A model generated the notes under the pieces. The model worked only from the letters and a program-made list of their open reading frames with translations. It was not told the origin of the DNA and ran no database searches. DNA of 37,294 bases from Candidatus Uhrbacteria bacterium (lineage in GTDB: Bacteria > Patescibacteriota > Patescibacteriia > 2-12-FULL-60-25). A program made the position numbers and the translations under genes. This document shows, one piece after another, positions 7,633 to 34,121 of the stretch. The stretch lies in contig JACQMO010000015.1 of the NCBI GenBank assembly GCA_016203535.1, positions 1 to 37,294 on the forward strand, given 5' to 3'. How positions within the stretch are numbered: the first letter of the stretch is position 1; every line of letters starts with the position of its first letter.

Positions 7633-9447
7633 ATGACCGCCCCGCGGTATCCGTTTTCAGGCCTCACGAGGCGTCCCGAATCCGAGACCCGGCTGCGCGT
7701 GCTTTCGTGGCTGCTTCTCCTGCCGCTTCTTGCGGTCGTCGGCCGACTGGTCCAGTTCCAGATTCTTGAACACGAAACGTTCGCCGCCTTTGCGAGCGAC
7801 CAGCACGATCTGGAAGAAAAATTGCTGCCGAAACGCGGGCGGATTTTCGTCCGCGACCGGACGGACGAACGGCTCTATCCGCTCGCCGCGAACCGCGAGG
7901 CGTGGACCGTATACGCGGCGCCGAAATACATGAAGGATCCCGTCGCCGTGGCCCACGAGCTCGCGCCGATCCTCCAGATGCCGGACGTGGACCTCGTGGC
8001 TCGTCTGACGAAAGCGGACGATCCGTATGAACTTCTCGTGCGCCAGGCGCCGTCGGATCTCGTGGACCAGCTCAAACAGAAATCGCTCGAGGGGATCGGA
8101 TATCTCCGCACCGTCGCCCGCCTGTATCCCGAAACGTCCGTGAGCGGCCAGCTCATCGGGTTCGTCGCCATGGACGAGCAGAATGCGCTGGTCGGGAAAT
8201 ACGGGGTCGAGGGCGGGTTCCAGGAGTTGCTCGCGGGCCGTCCCGGGTCGCTCGTCGCGGAAAAGGACGCGGGCGGACGGCGGCTTGCGATCGGCGACAG
8301 CAAGATCCAGAACGCCGTAGACGGGTCGGACATCGTGCTCACGATCGACCGCGCCATCCAGTATGAGGCGTGCACGCGGATCAAGGGCGCGGTCGAGCGG
8401 CACGGGGCCGACGGCGGATCCATCGTCGTGATGGACCCCGCGACCGGCGCGATCCTCGCCATGTGTTCCTTTCCCGATTTCGAGCCGGCCGAGTACGGGA
8501 AAGTGAAGGATCTCTCGGTCTTGAACAATCCCGTCCTGTTCAGCGCGTACGAACCGGGGTCGGTGTTCAAGCCGTTCACTATGGCCGCGGCCATCGACGC
8601 GGAAAAGATCTCACCGAAGACCACGTACACGGACACGGGATCGGAGGAGATTGACGGGCATACGATCCGCAATTCGGACGGGAAGGCGAACGGCGTGCAG
8701 ACCATGACGCAAGCGCTCGAGGCGTCGCTCAACACGGCGACCATTTTTGCGGAACGGCAGATCGGGAAAGACGTCTTCCGGTCGTACGTCGAGTCGTTCG
8801 GATTCGGTACGAAAACCGGTATCGAAATCACGCCGGAGGGGAAGGGCAACATCTCGTCGCTCGCGAAGAAGGGGAGCATTTTTGCCGCCACCGCGTCGTA
8901 TGGGCAGGGGATTACGGTGACACCGCTCCAGATCCTCGCGGGATATGCGGCACTCGGCAACGGCGGTCGGTTGATGAAGCCGTACATCGTGGCGGAGATC
9001 ATCCATCCGGACGGGTCGCGGGAAAAGACGAAGCCGGTAGAGGTCTCCCGGCCGATTGGCGCGCGGACGTCGCGGCTTATTTCCGGGATGCTCGTGGCCG
9101 TGGTCGAGAACGGGCATGGCCGTCGCGCGGGCGTTCCGGGATATTGGGTGGCCGGAAAAACGGGGACGGCCCAGGTCGCAAAAAAGGACGGGGCCGGATA
9201 CGAGGAAGACGAAACGATCGGCTCGTTTGCGGGGTATGCGCCGGCGAGCGACCCGAAGTTCGCGATGCTCGTGAAGATCGACCATCCGCGCGACGTGCAA
9301 TGGGCCGAATCATCGGCCGCTCCGCTTTTCGGGCAAATGGCGAAATTTCTCCTGACGTACCTGCAAGTACCGCCGGAGCGGCCGGTGAAGGATGTCCCGC
9401 CTCCGGTATCGCCTCCGCCGGTTGCCACCACGGGAACGGCGATCTAG
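7633..9447 (+). CDS. class B penicillin-binding protein (FtsI/PBP2-type transpeptidase)
   Basis: It cross-links peptidoglycan on the outer face of the membrane. The 604 residues comprise one N-terminal membrane helix (about 22-41), a PBP dimerisation domain (about 55-215) and a transpeptidase domain. The active site is complete: S310-V-F-K313 (SxxK), S365-L-N367 (SxN) and K509-T-G511 (KTG). A Pro-rich tail ends the protein (PPPVSPPPVATTG). The arrangement resembles FtsI/SpoVD. It sits between an anchored protein and murF, a typical division/cell-wall neighbourhood. It begins 2 nt after the upstream stop, so translational coupling is likely. Only the FtsI versus elongation-type assignment is uncertain. 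Confidence 0.93.
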   Translation: MTAPRYPFSGLTRRPESETRLRVLSWLLLLPLLAVVGRLVQFQILEHETFAAFASDQHDLEEKLLPKRGRIFVRDRTDERLYPLAANREAWTVYAAPKYMKDPVAVAHELAPILQMPDVDLVARLTKADDPYELLVRQAPSDLVDQLKQKSLEGIGYLRTVARLYPETSVSGQLIGFVAMDEQNALVGKYGVEGGFQELLAGRPGSLVAEKDAGGRRLAIGDSKIQNAVDGSDIVLTIDRAIQYEACTRIKGAVERHGADGGSIVVMDPATGAILAMCSFPDFEPAEYGKVKDLSVLNNPVLFSAYEPGSVFKPFTMAAAIDAEKISPKTTYTDTGSEEIDGHTIRNSDGKANGVQTMTQALEASLNTATIFAERQIGKDVFRSYVESFGFGTKTGIEITPEGKGNISSLAKKGSIFAATASYGQGITVTPLQILAGYAALGNGGRLMKPYIVAEIIHPDGSREKTKPVEVSRPIGARTSRLISGMLVAVVENGHGRRAGVPGYWVAGKTGTAQVAKKDGAGYEEDETIGSFAGYAPASDPKFAMLVKIDHPRDVQWAESSAAPLFGQMAKFLLTYLQVPPERPVKDVPPPVSPPPVATTGTAI

Positions 9448-9481
9448 GATAATGAGCTGGGATCCGGAATGACGGGGAACT

Positions 9482-10774
9482 ATGAAAAAATTACTGCAGC
9501 GATTTCTCGGAACCTGCGCCCGCGCGGCGATTTTGCGCGAACGGCCTCGCGTTGTTGCCGTTGCCGGGTCCGTCGGAAAGTCGTCAACGAAAGAGGCGAT
9601 CGCGGTGGCGGGCGGCGCGTATGATCCCACGTCCCGCGCGCTGGTATCGCCGAAAAATTACAACAACGAACTCGGGATTCCGCTCACGGCATTCCGGACG
9701 CCGGCGCCTGGAAGATCGCCCGTCGCGTGGATCCGTTTGCTCGTGCGCGCGGCGCTCACCGCTCTCGGGGCGAAGCGCATCAATGCGTCGTCGCTCGTCC
9801 TGGAATTCGGTACGGACCATCCCGGCGACCTTGCGTATCTCATCGGGATCGCCCATCCGGACGTCGCGGTGCTCACCGCGATTGCGCCGGAACACACGGA
9901 ATTTTTCGGGAGCGTGGAGGCGGTCGCGGACGAAGAACTCGCGATCATCCGGACGTTGACGGAGGACGGCGTCGCCATCCTGAACGCCGACGACGCGGAA
10001 GTGATGAAGGGGAAGGAGATGACGGACGCGACAGTCGTCACATTTGGAGAATCTCCGACGTCCGACGTCCGATTGCTTTCCTCGGAAGTCGTGGTGGATG
10101 AACAGGATCCGGAGGCGTCCGGTTTGGAGGTACATATCATCGCCCTGGGGTTGGGTGCGCGTCTCCGTCTCCGCGGGGTGTTCGGGAAACCGCACGCGCT
10201 CGCCGCCGCCGCGGCATTGGCCGTGGTCCACGCCTTGGACATCGATTTTCATGATTCCGCGGAACAACTGAAGGCGTATCGTGGGATGCCGGGGAGAACG
10301 CGGCTCATCACAGGGATCAAGCGGACAACGCTCCTCGATGACAGCTATAATTCCTCTCCGCTCGCCGCGCTCTCCGCCGTACGCGACCTCGCGAAGTTTC
10401 CGCGGCGGGACGGCGCGAAACGAATTGCGGCGCTCGGCGACATGCTCGAACTCGGTGCGCTCGCGGACGATGCACATCGCGATCTGGGACGCGCAGTCGC
10501 CGAACTTGGGATTGACATGCTCGTCGCAAGTGGTACACTCGCGCACGCAATTGCCGACGGCGCGAAAGACGCCGGGATGCCCGAAGGTTCCATTTTTGTT
10601 TTTCCTTCAAGCGTGGAAGCCGGACGGTTCATCCAGGAGCGATTGCACGAAGGAGACGTCGTGTTGATTAAAGGATCGCAAGGCGCGCGGATGGAAAAAA
10701 TCACCAAAGAACTCATGGCGGAGCCATTGCGAGCAAAAGAATTATTGGTGAGACAGACCGAGGAATGGCAGTAA
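9482..10774 (+). CDS. murF: UDP-N-acetylmuramoyl-tripeptide-D-alanyl-D-alanine ligase (MurF-type Mur ligase)
   Basis: It is a cytoplasmic ATP-dependent ligase that completes the peptidoglycan pentapeptide precursor. In its 430 residues the P-loop VAGSVGKSSTKE lies at 28-38. The central domain has ITA/IAPEHTEFFGSVEAV, and the C-terminal domain has DDSYNSSP and ALGDMLELG, the segment typical of MurF rather than MurC/D/E. GGGGAA lies just upstream of the ATG, and a GATAAT-like box is 28 nt before it, so it may have both coupling and its own promoter. Its stop is directly followed by tRNA-Glu without a single spacer base. Confidence 0.9.
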   Translation: MKKLLQRFLGTCARAAILRERPRVVAVAGSVGKSSTKEAIAVAGGAYDPTSRALVSPKNYNNELGIPLTAFRTPAPGRSPVAWIRLLVRAALTALGAKRINASSLVLEFGTDHPGDLAYLIGIAHPDVAVLTAIAPEHTEFFGSVEAVADEELAIIRTLTEDGVAILNADDAEVMKGKEMTDATVVTFGESPTSDVRLLSSEVVVDEQDPEASGLEVHIIALGLGARLRLRGVFGKPHALAAAAALAVVHALDIDFHDSAEQLKAYRGMPGRTRLITGIKRTTLLDDSYNSSPLAALSAVRDLAKFPRRDGAKRIAALGDMLELGALADDAHRDLGRAVAELGIDMLVASGTLAHAIADGAKDAGMPEGSIFVFPSSVEAGRFIQERLHEGDVVLIKGSQGARMEKITKELMAEPLRAKELLVRQTEEWQ

Positions 10775-12179: not shown

Positions 12180-13520
12180 TTATACGATCATCGGCAGTTT
12201 CTCCAGTTCGATTTTTTCGCCTGTAATGATGCTTTCGATCCGATACGACCCGTGCGTCGGCGCTTCGATGTAGCCGTTCCACGCCATCCGCGCCAACCCG
12301 CCGCTGTTGATCCAATCGAACAGCCATTCGTCCGTGTATCGCGGGTCGCCCTGCGTCACGCCCGCGTTGACCGTTTTTAGCCAGATCCGGTTGAACGCTT
12401 CCTGCGATCCGATGGAGGGCGCCATGATGATGGGAAGACCGACGCCGGAATAAAAGGACATTTCGCTCGGCTTCGTCCACAGGATGTCGGTCGTCCGCAG
12501 TCGTTTGGTAAACCGATGGAAATACGTCGTGCGGTCCGGCTCCGAATCGACGTGGATGCCCTTCCCCAGACACCGCTTCAACCCGAGTTGCTTGATTTGC
12601 GTCGTGAAGTAATCGGCGACGTCCGTTTTCGTGCCCGCGGCAAGCCGCACGATGATCCGGCCCGTCTGGATCCGGTGTTTGAGACTCCGCACCATGTCGA
12701 CCCCCAGTTTTTTCTGCGCGCCCGCGCCTCCGACCGAGAACACAAGCGTGATCGGACGATGCCCGTCACCCATGGGGCAGGTGCCCGGACCGAGTTCCGC
12801 ATCGAGCGTGCGCTGGTACTTCTGACGGAAAATTCCGTTCGGGTCCAGGTTGCAGATCCGCGTGATCAGGTCCTTCTTGATGATCACCCCCTCGGGACCG
12901 CCGATGACCTCCTTCGGCAGCGGAAAGCCAGTGAGAAAAATATTTTCCGGTTTGATCCCATAGAGCTTCAGGCGTTCGACGACCCGTCCGTTCGGCGCGA
13001 AGTATTTGATCCGGCTTTTTTTCGGGTCTTTCGCCACCCACGCGCGGCTTATGTCCGCGTCGCAGATGACGAGATAGATTTCGCCGGGATACCCGTACGT
13101 TTCAGCCGCGAACGCCGGGATGAAAAACGTGCAGATAAGCGGCAGGGGTTTTTTGGAAAGTTTTTCGATGAGATGTTTTCCGAGTCCGAGTTTCTCGATC
13201 ATGAAATACGTCTGCCTGACCTGCGAGGACGGCTGCGAAAGGTCGCGGCGCGGGTAAAACGGCGCGATACGTTGCGTCTTGTCGATCAGCGAAAACAACG
13301 GGTCGCCGATAAGCGGAATCGGCTTGACCCGCGACAGCAATTCGTAAATCCGGCGGCTTTCGACCCAAAGACGCTTGTCTCCGTCCGGAATGCCCGGATA
13401 GTCGTTCGCGGTGATGATGCCGCCGCGCGCGAGATCTTTCAGCGCATACGCCGCACGCTCGTGTCCGTACCCCATGTTGACGGACACGACCCATGCGTTC
13501 GCGTGACGGTGCGAAGTCAT
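12180..13520 (-). CDS. MurG/MGDG-synthase-like GT-B glycosyltransferase
   Basis: The protein has 446 residues. VSVNMGYGHERAAYAL near residue 12 matches the N-terminal G-x-G-H-x-x-A loop of the MurG and diacylglycerol-glycosyltransferase superfamily. LVFSVGGAGAQKK near 255 starts the nucleotide-sugar-binding domain. TKPSEMSFYSGVGLPIIMAPSIGSQE near 355 corresponds to the conserved sugar-nucleotide acceptor region. It is longer than MurG (about 360), so the acceptor may be a lipid rather than lipid I. With uppP, uppS and a prenyl synthase nearby, a role in envelope lipid or glycan assembly is likely. The ATG is 6 nt after a TGG-TATACT box. A prenyl-synthase gene diverges from the same short region. 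Confidence 0.75.
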   Translation of the reverse strand: MTSHRHANAWVVSVNMGYGHERAAYALKDLARGGIITANDYPGIPDGDKRLWVESRRIYELLSRVKPIPLIGDPLFSLIDKTQRIAPFYPRRDLSQPSSQVRQTYFMIEKLGLGKHLIEKLSKKPLPLICTFFIPAFAAETYGYPGEIYLVICDADISRAWVAKDPKKSRIKYFAPNGRVVERLKLYGIKPENIFLTGFPLPKEVIGGPEGVIIKKDLITRICNLDPNGIFRQKYQRTLDAELGPGTCPMGDGHRPITLVFSVGGAGAQKKLGVDMVRSLKHRIQTGRIIVRLAAGTKTDVADYFTTQIKQLGLKRCLGKGIHVDSEPDRTTYFHRFTKRLRTTDILWTKPSEMSFYSGVGLPIIMAPSIGSQEAFNRIWLKTVNAGVTQGDPRYTDEWLFDWINSGGLARMAWNGYIEAPTHGSYRIESIITGEKIELEKLPMIV

Positions 13521-31209: not shown

Positions 31210-31237
31210 AAAAAACCGCACCCATGATGGCGTGCGG
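31210..31237 (-). terminator. intrinsic terminator of the DHS-like gene
   Basis: On the minus strand CCGCAC/GTGCGG forms a 6-bp stem with a 10-nt loop, then six T. It lies 19 nt after the stop codon. Confidence 0.8.
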
Positions 31238-31255: not shown

Positions 31256-32725
31256 TCAGCCGCGCTCGAGTTTTTCGAGCGCGAACTTTTGCATGAACGG
31301 CCAGGCGATGGTCGCGTCGCAATGGACCTCGGCGAACTGGCCGTCGAAGTCGAATTTGCGCCAGGTCCCGCCTTCGCGGTAGGTGCAGCCGGAGAGATGG
31401 CCGAGCGACATCGGCGCCGGATCCACGCGGCAGGCGTAGAAGAAGCGACCGGCCGGTTGCTGTTCGCCGAGGCGCGCGTTGTAGATTTCGATGAGCGGCG
31501 CGACGTTCTGCGTGTTGTTGCGCGGGACGCCGCCGCCGATCGTGAAGATCCCGAGCCGCTTCGCCGAGGTCGCGAGGTCGAACAGGACCGCCGTGTCGCG
31601 TTCCTGGTTGAACACGACCGGCGCCCGCCCCTCGCGCACCCGGCGTACGTTGTGCACGAACACGTCGTTCGCGAGCTCCGAATCGGTGAACGCCGGAGTG
31701 ACGACCGGAACGCGCTGCCGGTAGGCGGCCGAGAGGATGGCGCGTTCGCCCGGAAAGTTCTTTTCGAGATACGCGCCGAGGTCCCGGTGGAACCGGCTGG
31801 AGCAGATGTCCTCGCGGCCGTCGTACCCGTCGAGCACTTCGGCCACGATCTTTTCGATGTGGTCGAAGTTTGTTTCCGGCTCGATGGTGTCGGTCACGCG
31901 GTTCAGCCCTTCCGCCGCGAGCGACTCGTCACTGAACTGCGGGTCGTACTTGTAGTGTCGGCAGCCGGAGCCCTCGACGAGGCCGTGCGCCATGAGCGCG
32001 CCGGTCGCGGCGACGTACTTCACGCGGCCGGTCTCGATGAGGTCGGCGACCAGGAGCTGCATCTTCGCGATGGTCATGGCGCCCGAGAGCGTGAGCATCA
32101 CCGTGCACTCCGGATCGCGGAGCATCTTCGTAAGCGTGTGCGCGCCGTGCACGACCTCTTTGCCGACGCCCGTGCAGATCTCGAGCGACGTCATCAGGTC
32201 CCCGACCGACGAGTATTCGCCGCGCACGCTCTCTCTCAAGACATGAAAGAGGATCGGGATGATGAGACTCGGGTCCGAGAACACTACGTCGGGGAAGTGC
32301 CCGTCGCGCACCTGCCCCGGCGTGCACTGGAAGTGGCTGTTCACGAAGATCTTGCGCTCGATCCGGCGGCTGATCTCCTGTTCGAGATAACCGGGGATCG
32401 GGCCGACGATGAGACCGTTGCCCGCCATGACGCCCGACTCGATGAAATGGGTCGCGTAGGTCGGGTGGAACGACGGGGCAAACTTCCGGATGCGGGCGAA
32501 GAAATTCCAGATCTGGTCATCGGGCCGCGCGTCGCAGATGATCTCGACGCGCCGGTTCTCGATGGCCCATTCGGTCAGTGTCTCGGCAACTTCGCCGAGC
32601 ATGCGCGCGCCGAAGGAGCACTGCATCATCCCGTTGACGATGTCGCTCACGGTGGCGCAGGCCTTGAGGTCGAGCGGGGAAAGAGGTTCGAGCTGTTCGA
32701 GGATCGTTTGACCGTTGGGTTTCAC
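31256..32725 (-). CDS. deoxyhypusine-synthase-like enzyme with an extra N-terminal DHS-related half
   Basis: The 489-residue protein is longer than ordinary DHS (about 370). The C-terminal part (about 173-489) is a full DHS-like NAD-binding domain with SLEICTGVG, LTLSGAM, AATGALMAHGLVEGSG, VVTPAFTDSE, FTIGGGVPRNNTQN and GTWRKF. Lys457 occupies the place of the catalytic lysine, and HCDATIAWPF matches the family end. Residues 25-165 look like a shortened, degenerate second copy (CSFGARMLGEVAETL at the start, VVFSDPSLIIPILF at the end) without that lysine. Bacteria have no eIF5A, and bacterial relatives act in polyamine metabolism, so a spermidine-related aminobutyl transfer is likely. GTG start with GGAGG, behind a good promoter. 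Confidence 0.85.
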   Translation of the reverse strand: MKPNGQTILEQLEPLSPLDLKACATVSDIVNGMMQCSFGARMLGEVAETLTEWAIENRRVEIICDARPDDQIWNFFARIRKFAPSFHPTYATHFIESGVMAGNGLIVGPIPGYLEQEISRRIERKIFVNSHFQCTPGQVRDGHFPDVVFSDPSLIIPILFHVLRESVRGEYSSVGDLMTSLEICTGVGKEVVHGAHTLTKMLRDPECTVMLTLSGAMTIAKMQLLVADLIETGRVKYVAATGALMAHGLVEGSGCRHYKYDPQFSDESLAAEGLNRVTDTIEPETNFDHIEKIVAEVLDGYDGREDICSSRFHRDLGAYLEKNFPGERAILSAAYRQRVPVVTPAFTDSELANDVFVHNVRRVREGRAPVVFNQERDTAVLFDLATSAKRLGIFTIGGGVPRNNTQNVAPLIEIYNARLGEQQPAGRFFYACRVDPAPMSLGHLSGCTYREGGTWRKFDFDGQFAEVHCDATIAWPFMQKFALEKLERG

Positions 32726-32760
32726 CTGAAAACCTCCATTGGTGTGAAAGGTGCCGCGGG

Positions 32761-32789
32761 ATCATTGCAGAAAAAGTGCCGTGCGTCAA
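32761..32789 (-). promoter_or_regulatory. promoter of the DHS-like gene
   Basis: TTGACG (32784-32789) and AATGAT (32761-32766) are spaced by 17 nt on the minus strand. The leader is about 30 nt and carries GGAGG before the GTG. A 7-bp hairpin (ACGGGGG/CTCCCGT, about 32788-32804) sits between this and the divergent gene. Confidence 0.75.
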
Positions 32790-32843
32790 CGGGGGTTGCT
32801 CCCGTGAGTATTTTCTCCATGCTACGATGTCGTGCATCAAGAT

Positions 32844-34121
32844 ATGATTAAAAATACCCGTACGCTTGCAACGACCAAACTCCGCCGCGACGCGCTTCGC
32901 GTACTCGATGCGGGACTCCGGGCCATTGATACGCGCAGTGTCGTCGCCGCGAACGTCAAACGCGTCGGGAACCGATTTACGATTTCGGGAAAAACGTTCG
33001 ATCTTCGCGCGTTTGATCATATCTATGTCATCGGGATCGGCAAGGCGGCAGCGGACGCGGGGCAGGAACTTGAGCGGATCCTCGGGGATCGCATTACGAC
33101 CGGCGTGATCCTGGATGTCAAAACCGTCCGGCTGAAACGTTTGAAAAGTCTCGCGGGAACGCACCCCTTCCCGTCTCTCGAAAACATGCGCGCGACCGGT
33201 GAAATCATCGGCATTCTGAAACACGTTGAGGAACACGATCTCGTGATTGCCGTCATTTCGGGCGGCGGATCCGCCCTGCTCTGCTGGCCGTATGAATTGA
33301 AATGCAACCAGCTCGTCCTGCTCACGAAGATGCTCATGCGGAACGGAGCGACGATCCAGGAGATCAACACCGTCCGGAAGCATCTGTCCGAAATCCAGGG
33401 CGGACAATTTGCAAAAATGGTCTATCCCGCGACCGTCGTCGGCCTGCTGTTTTCCGACGTTCCCGGCGACGACCCCGGCATGATCGCGTCCGGTCCGACC
33501 GTGATGGACCTCACGACGAAAAAGGATGCGGCACGCATCATGGCGAAATATGATCTCGCGAGGGCCTGTCGTTTGCCGAACTGCGAACTCCTTGAAACAC
33601 CGAAGGATCCGAAATATTTCCAGCGCGTGACGAATCACATCATCGTGAGCAACGTGCAGGCGCTTGATGCGATGTCCCGCGAAGCGAAGCGGCTCGGATA
33701 TTCTGTTCGGAAGTATTCCCAGAGTCTTTCGGGAGAAGCGCGCGAGGTCGGACGTCTGTTAGCCGGAATTCCGCAACCGGGGGAGATGGTGATTGCCGGT
33801 GGAGAGACGACCGTGACGGTCAAGGGGAAGGGGAAGGGCGGCCGGAATCAGGAAGTCGCTCTTAGCGCGCTCGCCTCGATTTCCGATGACGGGCTCGTCG
33901 CGTCGCTCGCCTCGGACGGAGTTGATAATTCTCCGGCGGCAGGCGCGTTTGTTGACGCGCGGATCCGCGAGCGCGCGAAACGGCTTCGGCTGAACCCCGC
34001 CGCGTTTCTGAATCGCAACGATTCCTACGCGTTTTTCAAACGTGCTGGCGGTCACATCCTCACGGGCGTGACCGGTGCGAACGTGTCAGATCTTTTTCTT
34101 GCCGCCCGCTCGCGTCGTTGA
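32844..34121 (+). CDS. glycerate 2-kinase (GckA/MOFRL family)
   Basis: It phosphorylates D-glycerate to 2-phosphoglycerate, feeding lower glycolysis. The 425 residues have the DUF4147 N-terminal domain (VIGIGKAAADAGQELE, GTHPFPSLENMRAT, AVISGGGSALL with the glycine-rich loop, TVRKHLSEIQGGQFAK) and a C-terminal MOFRL domain (GGETTVTVKGKGKGGRNQEVAL, ASDGVDNSPAAGAF). ATG 32844 is preferred. A GTG 12 nt upstream is only 3 nt from a TACGAT box at 32823-32828, which leaves a leader of about 8 nt for the ATG. It diverges from the DHS-like gene, and its 3' end overlaps the convergent next gene by 36 nt. Confidence 0.9.
   Translation: MIKNTRTLATTKLRRDALRVLDAGLRAIDTRSVVAANVKRVGNRFTISGKTFDLRAFDHIYVIGIGKAAADAGQELERILGDRITTGVILDVKTVRLKRLKSLAGTHPFPSLENMRATGEIIGILKHVEEHDLVIAVISGGGSALLCWPYELKCNQLVLLTKMLMRNGATIQEINTVRKHLSEIQGGQFAKMVYPATVVGLLFSDVPGDDPGMIASGPTVMDLTTKKDAARIMAKYDLARACRLPNCELLETPKDPKYFQRVTNHIIVSNVQALDAMSREAKRLGYSVRKYSQSLSGEAREVGRLLAGIPQPGEMVIAGGETTVTVKGKGKGGRNQEVALSALASISDDGLVASLASDGVDNSPAAGAFVDARIRERAKRLRLNPAAFLNRNDSYAFFKRAGGHILTGVTGANVSDLFLAARSRR

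Follow-up and report, generated by a model that had tools for sequence, protein, structure and literature searches.

The locus

The window, by which we mean the whole stretch of 37,294 nucleotides of Candidatus Uhrbacteria DNA that was analysed, carries on its minus strand a gene for a fused DHS-like protein. A catalytic C-terminal half (C half) is preceded in the same chain by an N-terminal half (N half) that bears the marks of a second, degenerate DHS copy (Table 1). Homologues use the same GTG start, which is further backed by the GGAGG stretch and by the promoter-like match in front of it.

Table 1 Features of the fused DHS-like gene, in window coordinates
Feature	Position	Strand	Basis
Promoter-like TTGACG-17-AATGAT	32761..32789	minus	9/12, consensus match only
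GGAGG, ribosome-binding-like site, 7 nt upstream of GTG	32733..32737	minus	read from sequence
Whole gene, fused DHS-like protein, 489 aa, GTG start	31256..32725	minus	ORF and full-length homologues
DHS N-terminal module kept in N half, residues 10-52 (LEPL..LDL...CSFGARMLGEVA)	32570..32698	minus	hhalign and HMM
Fast-evolving alpha/beta stretch, residues 53-131	32333..32569	minus	mean pairwise identity 0.26; AlphaFold
Relic of DHS C-terminal strand and helix, residues 147-168	32222..32287	minus	profile alignment
Second, diverged copy of DHS N-terminal helices at start of C half, residues 172-203	32117..32212	minus	profile alignment and conservation
Catalytic DHS domain, residues 187-478	31292..32167	minus	Pfam DS, E 2.8e-60
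Lys457, equivalent of catalytic Lys329 of human DHS	31355..31357	minus	alignment
Terminator-like CCGCAC..GTGCGG hairpin, then six T, just past the stop	31210..31237	minus	read by eye; automated scan did not list the hairpin

The upstream neighbour is a glycerate-kinase-like gene on the plus strand (DUF4147 and MOFRL; window 32832-34121), divergent and 106 bp from the start of the DHS-like gene, while a reading frame containing an HTH lies downstream. Elsewhere in the window are a DUF6938 protein (12180-13520, 18 kb from the fused gene) and a protein matching PD-(D/E)XK and RNase_H_2 (42-1529); at a different locus, L039, a DUF6938-related gene (8171-9508) directly adjoins a fused DHS gene. The host genome is represented by an 811-kb assembly that is 88% complete, and the closest named full-length relative of the window protein is likewise from a Candidatus Uhrbacteria bacterium.

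The C half as the catalytic domain

The match to Pfam DS (PF01916) reaches 204.5 bits against a gathering score of 27 and is restricted to residues 187-478. Lys457 is invariant across the fused family and stands in an SW.K motif with W455; E451 is also present. The original prediction held that this domain keeps all expected motifs, which is right for Lys457 but too strong as to completeness: in the alignment Asn353, Asn403 and Leu444 take the places of human Asp243, His288 and Asp316. The protein also misses the NCBIfam cut-offs for the DHS equivalog (188 bits against 434), PRK00770 (127 against 450) and PRK02492 (149 against 500).

One of these replacements is already known from a polyamine-coupling DHS homologue. 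CdmS, the caldomycin synthase of Thermus thermophilus, has the catalytic lysine together with Leu at the position of human Asp316, and acts on agmatine (PMC10981699). It differs at the position of human Asp243, which is Phe in CdmS and Asn in the window protein, and the accessible text of its description mentions no extra half.

An N half derived from DHS at both ends

Searched alone, the N-terminal ~170 residues find no sequence match in Pfam or the PDB. Profile comparison with single-domain relatives does find the DHS N module: residues 10-52 align with the DHS N terminus of these relatives at an hhalign E of 1e-12 (score 74, against a maximum of 20 in 60 shuffles). With an HMM of this module, each of the 10 N halves scores 25-46 bits, and no C half is matched convincingly. 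At the other end, the tail (residues 147-168) falls on the C-terminal DATI..WP..ER segment of DHS in four profiles, always at the right place (p 0.0007 with close relatives, 0.0003 with all, 0.012 with typical DHS and 0.011 with the protein's own C half). There are 93 columns between these ends where DHS has 278, which means that about 185 residues are gone. The lysine loop went with them, and SGAMT, TGA, PAFTDSEL and SW.K, the NAD-side motifs included, are absent from residues 1-170.

The start of the C half tells the complementary part. Compared through the single-domain relatives, the helix at residues 25-52 of the N half (p 0.0003) and the one at residues 172-203 of the C half (p 0.0007) both land on DHS columns 41-71, so this helix is present twice. 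A direct hhalign comparison of the two halves gives no significant match and the helix comparison a p of 0.06; because this comparison is weak alone, the repeat is visible mainly through the intermediates.

It had been proposed from the DNA that the first ~165 residues repeat the start and the end of the DHS fold without its lysine. Tested via the single-domain relatives, both repeats prove real (p 0.0003-0.012) and the lysine is indeed missing, so that a degenerate DHS-derived half is fused in cis, matching DHS at both ends within one chain. Nor is this stretch an ordinary DHS N terminus, as the single-domain relatives have no such extension. Descent of the N half from a DHS copy is thus, judged by these alignments, well supported at both ends.

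The middle of the N half

What lies between the two ends is harder to place. Residues 53-145 give z values of 0.1-1.1, not significant, against three DHS profiles in a dynamic-programming test, and for the middle as a whole (53-146) no sequence match reaches significance. AlphaFold predicts an alpha/beta structure for residues 1-180 with a mean pLDDT of 73 and a block of 77-92 over residues 51-130, and the predicted order of secondary structure elements fits a shortened DHS. A Foldseek search with this model returns weak matches with phosphosugar isomerases (SIS-type) on top; the Pyrococcus DHS 7cmc appears at ranks 22, 33 and 37 (E 0.04-0.06) in alignments of 298-309 columns. Such alignments span the whole DHS, as would be expected, if not decisively, of a DHS missing a large part of its centre. 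The sequences used for folding were those of the window and related loci, with loci from the genome searches left out; the full-length model, built on a three-sequence alignment, reached a mean pLDDT of only 41 and was unusable, and a fold search from it is meaningless. In the fold modelling that the original prediction called for, the alpha/beta structure thus has 7cmc among its matches, but the top matches are phosphosugar isomerases. The predicted fold is not clearly that of an unrelated domain, though its middle lacks a family match.

These observations could also be accounted for by an insertion, in which an unrelated alpha/beta (Rossmann-like) domain broke into a single DHS behind its N module, the N-terminal helix pair alone was duplicated at the junction, and the tail match is a coincidence. 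The missing DHS match of the middle and the lead of the SIS-type isomerases speak for it. A coincidence would have to recur on the DHS C terminus in four different profiles, however, and both the secondary structure order and the whole-length 7cmc alignments sit better with a shortened DHS. We regard an insertion as unlikely, while still the strongest competitor to a duplicated DHS copy.

Comparison with separate and fused dead partners

Trypanosomatids offer a close known parallel to a degenerate DHS copy, in that a catalytic DHS is paired with a lysine-less, DHS-derived partner, DHSp (PMC3663545). The Trypanosoma brucei DHSp, whose DHS fold is complete and still includes an NAD site, is a partner in the tight dimer (PMC3663545, PMC7432094, PMC7581365) and activates the catalytic DHS 3000-fold (PMC3663545). 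The two trypanosomatid proteins are encoded by separate full-length genes and their substrate is eIF5A, whereas the window protein is fused in cis and its N half has lost about 185 residues, NAD-side motifs included. The comparison with this system, drawn when the gene was first read, thus stands for a lysine-less DHS-derived partner that is fused; the mechanism as stated finds no support for a half without the full fold.

This matters for the idea of a cis prozyme, in which the tight dimer would consist of an N half and a C half, the former directly completing or activating the active site of the latter. In its favour are the DHSp precedent and an N half that is catalytically dead by sequence, fused, and under purifying selection at its ends (see below). 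Each active site of ordinary DHS is made up jointly by the two subunits of the tight dimer (PMC7432094). With SGAMT, TGA, PAFTDSEL and SW.K gone, the N half cannot supply a half-site of the DHSp type, which keeps its NAD site (PMC7432094), and complete sites could come from two C halves by themselves. We therefore consider direct activation improbable; for an N half that has lost the NAD-side and lysine motifs, assembly or gating would be likelier than shared catalysis.

An active and a degraded copy of a polyamine enzyme are also joined in one chain in fusions of SpeD with degraded SpeD and in eukaryotic class 2 AdoMetDC (PMC10407285). That family is unrelated, and its degraded copy is C-terminal, where that of the window protein is N-terminal.

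Distribution, phylogeny and selection

Full-length fused genes were found at nine loci (the window, L002, L003, L004, L005, L007, L008, L009 and L049). Their reading frames are all open, their hosts belong to more than one class and to several families, and they encode proteins of 484-505 aa, single-domain relatives having about 320-400 aa. A clade of Patescibacteria (candidate phyla radiation) has kept the fused layout, which is sparse at the level of the order, where 5 of 41 genomes have it. A maximum-likelihood tree of DHS domains unites the nine in a single group (support 100/98), whose sister (96/93) consists of nine single-domain genes. L002 shares its contig with L006. The sole candidate for a stand-alone N half, L023, was rejected; this only N-only match is a fused gene truncated where its contig stops, and the first part of a C half can already be read in it. 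Neither the viral contigs searched nor phage records yielded a relative, and the open-access literature searched contained no description of this fused DHS layout.

Conservation is distributed unevenly along the chain. Mean identity is 0.56 in the N module, 0.53 in the tail and 0.54-0.57 in the catalytic core, against 0.26 in the middle, and the N-terminal helices of the C half are conserved much less than module, tail and core. Where measurable, dN is well under dS in the ends of the N half. A pair of fused genes from one genus (L004 and L007) is 93% identical at residues 10-52 and 79-87% in the core, against 43% at residues 53-131, so the middle would appear to change unusually fast or to have been exchanged.

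The rapid evolution of the middle is what one would expect if the N half were functionless, decaying baggage. Reading frames that stay open in nine full-length genes across such taxonomic breadth, with ends as conserved as the core and dN below dS, make this very improbable. An assembly artefact joining two genes, for which we found no point in favour, is refuted by the same layout in the independent assemblies of all the other full-length loci.

Substrate and genomic context

The host had been said to have no eIF5A, and this is upheld: eIF5A/aIF5A (PF01287) has no match in 18 genomes, with archaea alone matching among the controls. Going by gene content, hypusination by the fused enzyme is very unlikely, and with eIF5A missing the window protein is probably an enzyme of the homospermidine or guanidopolyamine type. 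Here SpeY, the bacterial DHS homologue that acts as a homospermidine synthase, is a close comparison, sharing the DHS fold, the catalytic lysine and a genome without eIF5A; the fused proteins differ from it by their length and degenerate half.

The sister clade points the same way. An arginase-family (agmatinase-family) gene is present in 8 of its 9 genomes, each time on the contig of the DHS-like gene and at a short distance from it, and several of these clusters also contain a PLP or pyruvoyl (arginine) decarboxylase. They match published speY clusters with decarboxylase and agmatinase genes (PMC10407285) and the agmatine route to homospermidine (PMC10981699). In one cluster a saccharopine-dehydrogenase-like gene (L042:4692-5858) is flanked by the single-domain DHS-like gene and a pyruvoyl arginine decarboxylase, and is possibly a second polyamine enzyme.

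Among the fused genes, that of L003 is directly downstream of an agmatinase-like gene, and that of genome G130 adjoins a SpeD homologue in divergent orientation. Another fused-DHS genome, G227, encodes elsewhere a SpeD-SpeE fusion (L098:757-1839), that is AdoMet decarboxylase and spermidine synthase in one chain. The check for polyamine genes suggested earlier for the host found no precursor gene: its 88% complete genome yielded neither a ureohydrolase nor SpeD, no spermidine synthase and no decarboxylase of the PLP or pyruvoyl type. The fused genomes of Uhrbacteria type, including that of the window, gave no match to ureohydrolase, SpeD or PLP decarboxylase, and one of them (G022) has a pyruvoyl arginine decarboxylase. 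Missing data or polyamine import could explain the absent precursor genes.

A proposed history and mechanism

A DHS N signature kept in the N half alone and catalysis kept in the C half alone point to tandem duplication, fusion and complementary degeneration. An ancestral DHS-family gene would have been duplicated in tandem and the copies fused; the first copy would subsequently have shed its catalytic loop and the greater part of its core, with the N-terminal helices of the second left free to drift. The order of these steps is our reconstruction.

The most probable outcome, in our assessment, is a duplicated and fused DHS-family polyamine enzyme with the C half as catalyst and the N half as a non-catalytic relic serving the oligomer or gating. 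This reading draws on ends in register, a single clade, ends conserved as strongly as the core, the complementary HMM pattern, polyamine-gene neighbours and the leucine shared with CdmS. We counted against it the middle without a DHS match, the isomerase-led fold matches, the failure of the three-sequence model and the missing host precursor genes.

In such an enzyme the C half, using NAD and acting through Lys457, may move an aminobutyl- or guanidinobutyl-type group onto a second amine and so make a homospermidine-like product. Its N-terminal module and tail would be what the N half is kept for, most likely holding the oligomer together or gating the active-site tunnel, as the N-terminal region does in ordinary DHS. 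Tetramer formation and activity both depend on that region (PMC12868627, PMC7581365), and removal of the first 52 residues leaves human DHS as an inactive dimer (PMC7581365); a module moved to the fused half would thus make that half needed. Two C halves may form the active dimer, with the N halves replacing the second dimer or gating the tunnel. More tentatively, and with less than even confidence, complementary degeneration may have left the halves mutually dependent, a dimer of fused chains mimicking the DHS tetramer with two active sites and the N half acting as a cis-fused pseudoenzyme regulator. A regulatory role of the N half is plausible.

Implications for polyamine enzymes

The novelty of the fused gene is a new architecture inside a known enzyme family. 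Dead partners have been gained repeatedly by polyamine enzymes, as seen in the trypanosomatid DHSp, the AdoMetDC prozyme and the fused degraded SpeD of class 2 AdoMetDC. To these the window protein adds a bacterial case from the DHS family in which the dead partner lies in cis, and its single-domain sisters allow a direct comparison. The fused degenerate half persists in tiny genomes, which would be expected to shed superfluous sequence. With its catalytic parts gone and its two ends under strong selection, the shortened second copy could be a built-in dead partner of the working half.
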